DNA of 64,000 nucleotides from an uncultured Sphingomonas sp. (GTDB taxonomy: Bacteria; Pseudomonadota; Alphaproteobacteria; Sphingomonadales; Sphingomonadaceae). The position numbers and the translations under genes are program-made. This document shows, piece after piece, positions 59,880 through 63,754 of this stretch. The DNA lies in assembly GCA_913775795.1 (NCBI GenBank), contig CAJYLT010000083.1, positions 62,001-126,000 of the forward strand, written 5' to 3'. The notes beneath the pieces are model-generated. The model saw only the letters and a program-made list of their open reading frames with translations, was not told where the DNA came from and searched no databases. The stretch's first letter is position 1; the number at the start of each line of letters is the position of its first letter.

Positions 59880-61334
59880 CTACTGGCCGCTCGCCCGCTC
59901 GACCGTGACGATGACACGGGCGTAGCGGGTGAGCGGCGGTGATCCCTTGTCGGTGACGCTCAGGATGAAATGCGCCTCGCACCGCCGGTCGAACGCGGGG
60001 ATGGTGATCGCCCGTTCGTAGAGACTTTCCGCGCCCGACAGCTTGATTTCGCCGGGACAGTTGCCCGCCTCCGGATAGGCGAACCAGTGATAGCTGAGGC
60101 TGTCGCCGTCGGGATCGCTCGTCCCGCGCGCGCTGAGCGTCAGGCGATCGCCTGCCTTCGCCGTTAGCCGATCTGCATGTCCGAGGCGCACGACCGGCGG
60201 ATGGTTCGCCTCATTCGGCGCGCGTGTCGTCCAGTCCATCCGCGCGGCGAAATCGTTCTGGAAATCGTCGCGCCAGCGCCAGATCGTCTCGCGATAGCCC
60301 TCGTACGAGCGCTCGCCGGGCCTGATCGCCGCGCCATGGGGGCTGGCGACCGGCGGCGTCACCTTGTCGATCGCGTTGGTCCAGATCGGCCGCGCCTCGG
60401 GATCGACCGGCACGCCGCCATTGAAGCCCTTGGGGTCGAGCTCAGCCAGCGGCGGGATGCGCAGCGCATAGCGACCGCCCCAGCCGCCCCAGTCGGGCCG
60501 CTCGGGCACGCTCAGGCCGTTGGGGATGAGGCCGAGGAACGAGGGCGTGTCGCCTTCCATGCCATAGGCGACGTCGGGATAGGCGGCGCCCAGCGGCCCG
60601 TGCCCCTGCTGGATGTTGGCGGCGAGCCAGTCGTTCGAGATCGTCTTGTTATCCGCTCCCTCCACGACGGTCATGATCCCCGTCCACGTCGCCGCGCCAT
60701 AGCCGCCGGGGCTGACGATGTAGAACAGCCCGGGAAACTCCCGCCGCATCCAGGCGCCCGAATCGTCCTGGTCGGAGATGGTATAGACGCGCAACTTGGC
60801 GACCAGCCGCTCAACGTCCGCCGCGGATCGCGTCGCGCGCAGCGTATGGAGCGCCTGTGCCAGCGTGTTCGGCCCGCCCCATGCCGTCACCCAGAGCGGG
60901 CGCGGATCGGGCCGGTCGAGCGCCTCGATCAGCCGCCGCGATCCGTCGCTGTCCTTCCCCGCGCCGACGCCGCCCATGCCATAGGTCGTCTGTCCCCGCG
61001 CGACGAGGCGGTCGAGCGCCGACGCGGCCGAATAGCCCGGCGCGTGCCGCGACAGGTTGGGCTGCACCTTGGCGTACTCGCCGATGATCCGCCGGATCGT
61101 CTCGGGTGCGGTGCGCGTCTTCATGTGGACGGAGGTGGTGGCGACCAGCCCCTCGATATCGATCTCGTTCGAATAGAGCAGCAGCCGGATCAGCGACTGG
61201 GTGTCGTCGGGCTCGTTCTCGATATCGGTCAGGACGAACAGGCGCTGTTTGGACACCGGCGCCTGTTGGGCTGAAGCCGGAGCCGCCGCCATCGGGAAGA
61301 GGCAGGCGATCGCCAGCCATTTGCGCAGTCCCAT
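59880..61334 (-). CDS. Secreted DUF1593 protein (nucleoside-hydrolase-like) with C-terminal Ig-like domain
   Basis: RLFVLTDIENEPDDTQSLIRLLLYSNEIDIEGLVATTS; WGGPNTLAQALHTL; C-terminal LSARGTSDPDGDSLSYHWFAYPEAG. Confidence 0.85.
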   Translation of the reverse strand: MGLRKWLAIACLFPMAAAPASAQQAPVSKQRLFVLTDIENEPDDTQSLIRLLLYSNEIDIEGLVATTSVHMKTRTAPETIRRIIGEYAKVQPNLSRHAPGYSAASALDRLVARGQTTYGMGGVGAGKDSDGSRRLIEALDRPDPRPLWVTAWGGPNTLAQALHTLRATRSAADVERLVAKLRVYTISDQDDSGAWMRREFPGLFYIVSPGGYGAATWTGIMTVVEGADNKTISNDWLAANIQQGHGPLGAAYPDVAYGMEGDTPSFLGLIPNGLSVPERPDWGGWGGRYALRIPPLAELDPKGFNGGVPVDPEARPIWTNAIDKVTPPVASPHGAAIRPGERSYEGYRETIWRWRDDFQNDFAARMDWTTRAPNEANHPPVVRLGHADRLTAKAGDRLTLSARGTSDPDGDSLSYHWFAYPEAGNCPGEIKLSGAESLYERAITIPAFDRRCEAHFILSVTDKGSPPLTRYARVIVTVERASGQ

Positions 61335-61387: not shown

Positions 61388-61786
61388 TCAATCGGCCTTG
61401 AACGCCTCGAGGATCGGGCAGGGGCCTGGCCCCGCCGCGCCGCACGCGCTGGCGAGACCGGCAAGCGCCGTCCGCGCCGCGCTCAGCGCAGCGATCTGTT
61501 CATCGAGCGCGGCGATCCGTGCGGTCGCCAATCGCCGTACGCCCGCGCGATCGCTTGCCGCATCGAGCGTGAGCAGTTCGCCGATCTGGTCGAGCGTGAA
61601 ACCCGCCGCCTGTGCCGACCGGATGAAGCGCAGCCGCTTGAGATCGCCCGAACGATAGCGGCGGATGCCGCCACTCGATCCGCCGCCCGCCGGACGATCG
61701 GGCAGGCCGACCAGCCCACGCCGCTGGTAATAGCGTACGGTTTCCACGCCTACGCCGCCGGCTTCCGCCAGCGTGCCGATCGTCAT
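61388..61786 (-). CDS. MerR-family heavy-metal-type regulator lacking the first Hg-ligand Cys
   Basis: [32 protein letters not shown]...[34 protein letters not shown]...[18 protein letters not shown]; start placed at ATG 61786. Confidence 0.88.
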
Positions 61787-61789
61787 CGC

Positions 61790-61820
61790 TTGATCCCGTA
61801 CCATGGTACGGACCCATATG
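61790..61820 (+). promoter_or_regulatory. mer-type MerR operator/promoter
   Basis: TTGATC (61790-61795), 19-bp spacer containing perfect palindrome CCGTACCATGGTACGG (61796-61811), CATATG at -10 position. Confidence 0.8.
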
Positions 61821-61848: not shown

Positions 61849-62847
61849 ATGACCCGCACTGCGACGCTCTATCGCATGGTGATGCCCAGCCACACCTGCC
61901 CCTATGGCCTCAAGGCGAAGCACCTGCTGCGTCGCAAGGGCTATGCCGTCGACGATCATTGGCTTACGACGCGCGCGGAAACCGACGCGTTCAAGGCGAC
62001 GTACGGCGTCGCCACCACGCCGCAGGTCTTCATCGACGGCGAGCGGATCGGCGGCCATGACGACCTTCGCCGCTTCCTCGGCCTCAAGATCGCCGATCCG
62101 AAGGCGACGACCTATCGCCCCGTCGCCGTCCTGTTCGCGCTGACGGCGCTGATGGCGCTGGCGGCGAGCTACGCCGCCTATGGCGATGCGCTGACGGTGC
62201 GCACGGGCGAGTGGTTCGTCGCCTTCTCAATGGTCGTACTGGCGCTGCTCAAGCTCCAGAATGTCGATCGGTTCGCGACGATGTTCCTCAATTACGACCT
62301 GCTCGCGCGGCGATGGGTGCCGTACGGCCATGTCTATCCCTATGCGGAGGGGCTGGCCGGCCTCCTGATGGTTGCGGGCGTCGCCGTCTGGGCGTCGGTG
62401 CCGATCGCACTTTTCATCGGCACGATCGGCGCGGTGTCGGTGTTCAAGGCGGTCTATCTCGACCGGCGAGAGCTCAAATGCGCGTGCGTCGGCGGCGACA
62501 GCCACGTGCCGCTAGGCTTCCTGTCGCTGACCGAGAACGTGATGATGATCGCGATGGCGCTCTGGATGGCGGCGGGCGCGCTCGGCTGGACGCCGCACGC
62601 CGCGCCGCCGCCGGCGCATGGCATGAAGATGGCGACGAGCGGCGATCCCGACACTGTGTTTATGCAAGGGATGATCCCGCATCACCGCGGCGCGATCGAC
62701 ATGGCGAAGGCGGCATTGCGCGACGGCAAGGACCCTGAGGTCCGTGCGCTCGCCGCCGACGTCATCCGTGCACAGGATGCCGAGATCGCGCAGATGCAGG
62801 CATGGCTCGCCCGCCGCGGCGAGCGCGCGGGTGCCATGGCGCACTGA
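61849..62847 (+). CDS. Glutaredoxin-like / MauE-like membrane / DUF305 triple-domain protein
   Basis: N-term [18 protein letters not shown]...[25 protein letters not shown] segments with [26 protein letters not shown]-term DUF305 [19 protein letters not shown]. Confidence 0.85.
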
Positions 62848-62872: not shown

Positions 62873-63754
62873 ATGGCCGAGCCCTTGCCCATCGCCTTTG
62901 CCCGGCACCTGACGCGCGACCGCCGCCGCTCGGCCCAGACGGTGCGCGCCTATCAGGCGACGGCGGAGCGATTGCTCGCCTTCCTGCGCGATCATTGGGG
63001 CGGGCCCGTAGAGGCCGCGGACCTGGCGAAGGCGACCGCCGCCGACCTGCGCGCCTTCCTCGCGGTGCGTCGGGGGGAGGGGCTGTCCAATACGTCGGCC
63101 GCGCGCGAATTGTCCGCGGTGCGCGCGTTCCTCGCCTTTGCCGGGGCGCCGCCCCCGCGCCTTGCCGGCCCGCGCGTCAAGAAGGGCGTGCCGCGACCGA
63201 TCGCCCCGGCCGAAGTGATCGCGCTGGCGGAGGAAGTGTCGGAGGATGCCGCCGAGCCCTGGATCGCCGCGCGCGACTGGGCGGTGCTGCTGCTCCTGTA
63301 CGGCGCGGGACTGCGCATCGGAGAGGCGATGGCGCTGACCCCGGCGATCCTGCCGCTCGGCGACACGCTTCGCGTCACTGGCAAGCGCGCCAGGACGCGG
63401 ATCGTGCCGCTGCTCCCCGCCGTGCGGACCGCGGTCGAAGATTATGCCGCTGCCTGCCCCTATGCGCTAACGCCGGAGGCACCGCTGTTCCGCGGGGCGA
63501 AGGGCGGCGCGCTCTCGCCCGCGATCATCCGCCGGTCGGTGCGCGCGGCGCGCGGGCGGTTGGGCCTGTCCGATCGCACCACACCGCACGCGTTGCGCCA
63601 CAGTTTCGCGACGCATCTGCTGGGCCGCGGCGCGGACCTGCGCGCGCTGCAGGAACTGCTCGGCCATGCCAGCCTCGGCTCGACCCAGATCTATACCGCG
63701 GTCGATGCGGCGCATCTGCTCGACGTCTATCGCAATGCGCATCCGCGGGCATGA
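62873..63754 (+). CDS. Tyrosine recombinase XerC/D-like
   Basis: YGAGLRIGEAMAL, TPHALRHSFATHLLGRGADLRALQELLGHASLGSTQIYTAVD (R-H-R-H-Y). Confidence 0.92.
   Translation: MAEPLPIAFARHLTRDRRRSAQTVRAYQATAERLLAFLRDHWGGPVEAADLAKATAADLRAFLAVRRGEGLSNTSAARELSAVRAFLAFAGAPPPRLAGPRVKKGVPRPIAPAEVIALAEEVSEDAAEPWIAARDWAVLLLLYGAGLRIGEAMALTPAILPLGDTLRVTGKRARTRIVPLLPAVRTAVEDYAAACPYALTPEAPLFRGAKGGALSPAIIRRSVRAARGRLGLSDRTTPHALRHSFATHLLGRGADLRALQELLGHASLGSTQIYTAVDAAHLLDVYRNAHPRA

Follow-up and report, generated by a model that had tools for sequence, protein, structure and literature searches.

An arginine-bearing sister lineage of the mercury regulator MerR and its divergent glutaredoxin-MauE-CopM gene: a candidate copper(I) divergon in Sphingomonas

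In MerR-family metal sensors, the cross-subunit residue at the metal site sets the selectivity for +1 or +2 ions; this residue is Ser77' in CueR, whereas MerR, CadR and ZntR have Cys (PMC9909328, PMC11591864). Serine was reported at the cross-subunit position in all monovalent sensors (PMC11591864), and a cross-subunit Cys was essential in all of the divalent-metal sensors tested (PMC3431237). Alanine scanning of MerR showed that C82, C117 and C126 are each required for the mercury response (PMC11494693). The half-sites of proteobacterial mer operators read TCCGTAC-(4)-GTACGGA (PMC1526738). Synthetic MerR-CueR hybrids function on mer promoters (PMC10028694), so a copper-sensing half can feasibly be joined to a DNA-binding half of the mercury type. 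Among glutaredoxins, SmGrx3 (SMa0280) of S. meliloti was found to have low deglutathionylation activity and no reported mutant phenotype; its function was reported as unknown and its gene was listed as heat-shock inducible (PMC6315971). The divergon analysed here was not described in the open-access literature that we searched on MauE with DUF305 and copper, and on SMa0280.

The regulator of this divergon lies in a stretch of 64,000 nucleotides from an uncultured Sphingomonas sp., referred to hereafter as the window. It had been singled out from the sequence as a mercury MerR that lacks one ligand cysteine.

The regulator and its metal site

The regulator gene is intact and occupies 61388..61786 on the minus strand (ATG at 61786, stop at 61388), encoding a MerR-family protein of 132 aa. 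A second in-frame ATG is present upstream at 61804, but because it falls inside the operator the start at 61786 is likelier. The Pfam domains MerR_1, MerR-DNA-bind and MerR all scored above their cut-offs, and the protein has the helix-turn-helix, dimerisation helix and two-Cys C-terminal loop of the family. Tn501 MerR (5crl) was the top solved structure in a single-sequence search (E = 1.6e-23) and was again first when solved structures were searched with a profile of 22 family members (E = 2.7e-34), in agreement with the original prediction that the protein aligns along its length with mercury MerR. A predicted model of the regulator (mean pLDDT 90.8) gave 5crl as its best match in a fold search, with CadR and CueR also matching.

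In both the sequence and the profile alignments, Arg80 of the regulator (in SDRAG) stands opposite C82 of MerR (in THCEEAS), while C117 pairs with C115 and C126 with C123. The prediction had read the site in the same way, with Arg at the first ligand position and the two C-terminal ligand cysteines kept. It had also staked itself on a profile alignment, in which a Cys opposite C82 would have overturned it; the alignment was run and returned Arg. Misalignment at C82 was considered and rejected, since Arg occupies the position in both alignments and the long helix of the predicted model begins at Arg80. A hidden third Cys was likewise rejected, as C115 and C123 are the only cysteines in the 132-aa protein. 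The loop reads C-x7-C-P-I-L, with the spacing of CueR (C112-x7-C120), whereas that of Tn501 MerR is C-x8-C.

Scanning genome contigs with an alignment of the family yielded 80 loci, mainly from Alphaproteobacteria (Sphingomonadales, Rhizobiales and Caulobacterales) with one Lysobacteraceae record. At the C82 position 77 of the 80 regulators have Arg and three have His; Cys and Ser were each found in none. Both loop cysteines are present in all 80, spaced as C-x7-C in 79, and the Pro after the second Cys is invariant (C-x7-C-P-I). The three His regulators are L079, L082 and L108, and in L108 the loop is also C-x6-C. Because Arg is conserved across the clade it is a lineage trait. Pseudogene status and substitution by chance were both rejected, given Arg or His in 80/80 and an intact gene. 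The statement that the regulator had lost the first cysteine was correct as to its absence but understated what had replaced it. The clade-wide Arg and the CueR-like loop spacing are two details that go beyond the prediction, although C-x7-C occurs also in alphaproteobacterial MerR relatives that retain the Cys, so the spacing is not diagnostic. Two alphaproteobacterial MerR relatives outside the clade, L167 (DTATVR) and L172 (DLELVR), also have no Cys near the C82 position. In Agrobacterium tumefaciens pAt3 (L037), the regulator frame is 97 aa and has no cysteine loop, so it appears truncated, and the adjacent Grx-MauE gene and operator are intact; several annotated copper proteins lie in this plasmid region.

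Orthology to mercury MerR, as originally proposed, did not hold. The regulator scored 95.7 bits against the NCBIfam MerR equivalog (TIGR02051), below the cut-off of 150.85, and in the tree the Arg-type clade is sister to Tn501 MerR (support 96/87) and outside the CueR clade (100/99). The tree was built from 81 rows and only 133 columns, its bootstrap had not settled, and Tn501 was the sole gammaproteobacterial Hg-MerR in the set. The regulator has two of the three mercury ligands (C82/C117/C126), and the recurrent neighbours in its family are copper genes instead of mer genes such as merT; in view of its score, ligands, partner gene and tree position, a Hg-MerR orthologue was rejected. A CueR orthologue was rejected on score (76.1 bits, cut-off 147.4), Ser, operator and tree: the protein has the two loop cysteines at x7 and no cross-subunit Cys, as CueR does, but Arg or His stands where CueR has Ser77. 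The ZntR and CadR-PbrR equivalogs gave 74.5 and 55.7 bits (cut-offs 167.95 and 151.45), and the cross-subunit Cys of the ZntR/CadR/PbrR group is replaced by Arg. The SoxR model gave 50.9 bits (cut-off 116.9), and the protein has two cysteines, not the four needed for [2Fe-2S]. By sequence comparison, the clade is a sister lineage of Hg-MerR.

The operator and the divergent gene

The intergenic region contains a palindromic putative operator, CCGTACCATGGTACGG, at 61796..61811. Reading on the plus strand toward the divergent gene, a -35-like element, TTGATC (61790..61795; consensus among relatives, TTGACT), precedes it and a -10-like element, CATATG (61815..61820), follows it 19 bp from the -35 element; in relatives the -10 element is TATAT, best read with a 20-bp spacing. 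The order from 61790 to 61820 is TTGATC-CCGTACCATGGTACGG-ACC-CATATG. The palindrome, CCGTAC-CATG-GTACGG, matches the mer consensus and lies within an over-long promoter spacer of 19-20 bp, and its core is the CCGTAC-N4-GTACGG of mer operators. When an operator was scored as at least 10 of 12 half-site bases after a TTGAC-like -35 element with a TATAT element next, one was predicted in 80 of 81 loci, a count that takes in the window site. The composite site was present within two mismatches in 76 of 121 genomes of the genus. Exact CCGTAC-N4-GTACGG occurs once in the genome from which the window comes, at the window site, and no larger regulon was seen there, as matches with one mismatch were no commoner than those to a reversed-pattern control.

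The divergent gene (61849..62847, plus strand) encodes a 332-aa fusion of glutaredoxin, MauE and CopM/DUF305 domains. The glutaredoxin domain covers residues of about 11-78 (61879..62082, plus strand; Pfam PF00462 and alignment) and has CPYG at 17-20. The MauE domain, residues 119-242 (62203..62574, plus strand), scored 41.7 bits against a cut-off of 27 (Pfam PF07291) and carries an invariant C-A-C at 211-213. The third domain, residues 257-320 (62617..62808, plus strand), scored 100.3 bits against the cut-off of 90 for the CopM family metallochaperones (NCBIfam NF049983), has the MIPHH motif, and also matches CopM and DUF305 structures. A fold search with the whole fusion gave weak matches, the glutaredoxin domain first and CopM lower, and no fold relative for MauE. 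In the model the glutaredoxin domain is followed by five long helices, and the loops after the second and fourth of these carry Arg/Lys. The simplest topology probably places the glutaredoxin domain and the C-A-C motif in the cytoplasm and the CopM domain in the periplasm, although several of the helices are only moderately hydrophobic. Grx-MauE is divergent to the regulator in 75 of the 80 loci; a clear CopM domain was found in three of these 75 proteins (L039, L084 and L104), and the others end after MauE.

The flanking genes in the window are not obviously linked to metals. A protein with a Sde182-like nucleoside-hydrolase domain is encoded at 59883-61334 on the minus strand, and a XerC/D-like tyrosine recombinase, which scored under the XerC equivalog cut-off, at 62873-63751 on the plus strand.

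Copper genes and natural exchanges

The recurrent neighbours of the divergon are copper-tolerance genes: multicopper oxidase, CopB, DUF411, DUF305 and CusB-CusF, together with an RND pump recognised by eye only. A copper-tolerance gene was found within about 6 kb in 29 of the 80 loci (27 if the RND-pump cluster is left out), a figure that is a floor because many contigs are truncated. The majority of the 80 loci show no copper genes nearby, and around the copy in the window the CopM domain is the only such feature. Within the genus, copB lies within 6 kb of 12 of 39 Grx-MauE copies, where 0.18 was expected (Poisson P about 3e-18, a value that overstates independence because the genomes are related). 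No true MerT gene (>80 bits) was found near any Grx-MauE copy; weak MerT-like matches come closer, the nearest being about 4 kb away in one genome (G014). The genome that holds the window is 81% complete. It has one CopB gene (C6:1040-1660), and neither MerT nor, at 1e-25, the CueR model found a match in it. Allowing for the missing sequence, this genome may have no CueR-class copper sensor other than the regulator.

In four loci one of the two partners has been exchanged. In L027, the divergent partner of Grx-MauE is a CueR relative of the Ser type, and between the two lies TTGACCTTCCAATGGTTGGAAGG, a CueR-type operator. In Methylobacterium currus (L206) the gene divergent to Grx-MauE is annotated as cueR and comes with a CueR-like site; since the selectivity position of this CueR reads Asn (SNADVK), the regulator is not Ser-type. 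The reverse exchange is seen in L115, where a tandem CopM protein (212.6 bits, cut-off 90) is encoded divergently from the Arg-type regulator, and in L048, where the nearest long divergent ORF encodes a copA-type copper-resistance oxidase (TIGR01480; 820 bits, cut-off 479), with a small ORF between this gene and the operator. Neither L115 nor L048 has Grx-MauE beside the regulator. To judge from these gene arrangements, the four exchanges are the strongest evidence that the regulator and its target belong to a copper response.

The same divergon is present on pSymA of S. meliloti 1021 (L036; NC_003037, about 157.6-158.3 kb), with a divergent Arg-type regulator (HNRSAAR) and the site TTGACTCTGTACCATGCTACGG. 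The locus is unannotated in the record used, and the Grx-MauE gene fits SmGrx3 (SMa0280) by architecture and plasmid. Copper induction of SMa0280 would be predicted if the regulator senses copper; on this view SmGrx3, an orphan glutaredoxin, and its relatives would have a role in responding to copper that can be tested.

Candidate ligands and known systems

Of the ligands originally put forward (another thiophilic metal, Cu(I) or redox state), the gene context favours Cu(I)/Ag(I). We infer, with a probability of roughly 0.68, that the regulator is a MerR-family activator of the Cu(I)/Ag(I) class and that its target is the divergent Grx-MauE-CopM gene. Against this stand the mercury-type operator and DNA-binding half and the position of the clade as sister to Tn501 MerR; and since Ser is reported for every monovalent sensor (PMC11591864), Arg does not fit the known copper class either. 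A dimer of the regulator would bind CCGTAC-N4-GTACGG and keep the promoter inactive without metal. Cytoplasmic Cu(I) (or Ag or Au) would be held linearly by C115 and C123, and Arg80' from the other subunit might cap the site in the place of Ser77' of CueR, offsetting the net negative charge of S-Cu-S. The metal-bound state would then untwist the DNA so that RNA polymerase reads the target gene, whose product may act on copper or thiols at the inner membrane, its glutaredoxin domain and C-A-C motif lying inside and CopM probably in the periplasm.

The alternative that survives best, though it is unlikely, is a sensor of redox or thiol stress, in which a C115-C123 disulfide or glutathionylation would switch on a membrane glutaredoxin that repairs thiols, the copper genes being near because copper causes thiol stress. 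The CPYG site and invariant C-A-C motif of the target, the heat-shock induction listed for SMa0280 in S. meliloti (PMC6315971) and two cysteines nine residues apart, which could form a disulfide, are all consistent with such a sensor. Nevertheless, the loop retains the C-x7-C-P-I signature of a metal site with its invariant Pro, targets without glutaredoxin (CopM in L115, the copA-type oxidase in L048) stand beside the same operator, and a CueR-type regulator can replace the Arg-type one.

Somewhat less probable still is the sensing of a different ion, divalent or metalloid (Cd, Zn, Pb or As), or a broad selectivity in which Arg or His is a mere spacer in the site. MerR regulators can relax their selectivity at high metal (PMC11591864), and the His of three members could itself bind metal; yet Arg is a poor ligand, a cross-subunit Cys was essential in every divalent sensor tested (PMC3431237), and of the metal genes that can be recognised among the neighbours, those of the copper type recur most.

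Mercury, whether bound only by the two loop cysteines or also by an external thiol, is the least probable ligand, despite the mer consensus half-sites (PMC1526738) and the closeness of Tn501 MerR in structure and tree, since MerR needs C82 for its response (PMC11494693), CueR binds Hg(II) without being activated (PMC6899792), and true MerT genes are not near the loci, nor was one seen in the 81% complete genome of the window. The prediction had argued from the need for three cysteines that the regulator is probably not a mercury sensor, and both steps agree with the published mutagenesis (PMC11494693, PMC3431237).

The lineage might represent a third class of MerR metal sensor, one whose partner subunit contributes a conserved Arg (sometimes His) at the position held by Ser in monovalent sensors and by Cys in divalent ones. 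This class would have arisen from the Hg-MerR lineage with the mer operator kept, passing from a mercury-type to a copper(I) regulator by a change in its own sensor site and not by a domain swap; we hold the odds on this proposal to be even. An Arg that fits neither the Ser nor the Cys rule, in a widespread lineage, would allow a direct test of how charge at this site governs selectivity. In cells that also contain mer operons, the mer half-sites of the operator may lead to cross-talk between those operons and the regulator, and this would matter for mercury biosensors.

Tn501/Tn21 MerR (5crl) is the nearest relative by sequence, profile, fold and tree, and shares the CCGTAC/GTACGG half-sites and two loop cysteines. 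It differs in having C82 for the conserved Arg, C-x8-C for C-x7-C, and mer genes as targets, and the regulator falls under the MerR equivalog cut-off. CueR/HmrR (1q05, 4wlw) share the C-x7-C-P-I spacing, the lack of a Cys at the cross-subunit position and the copper gene context, and can occupy the same place divergent to Grx-MauE; in contrast, Ser77 of CueR is Arg here, the operator is mer-type and not ACCTTCC, and the regulator is in a separate clade and has no C-terminal CCHH motif. The CopM/DUF305 copper-binding proteins (5fej, 7vw1) match the C-terminal domain of the target by sequence, with the PHH motif kept, but here the domain forms the end of a single membrane protein, after glutaredoxin and MauE. 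SmGrx3 shares the Grx-CPYG and MauE architecture and the divergon with an Arg-type regulator and operator, and differs in being described without a CopM domain. The synthetic MerR-CueR chimeras (PMC10028694) resemble the regulator in their mercury-type DNA-binding half, and they sense Cu/Ag and are active on the mer promoter. They are domain-swapped proteins that keep the CueR sensor half, whereas the Arg lineage is natural and the tree gave no sign of a CueR-derived sensor half in it.
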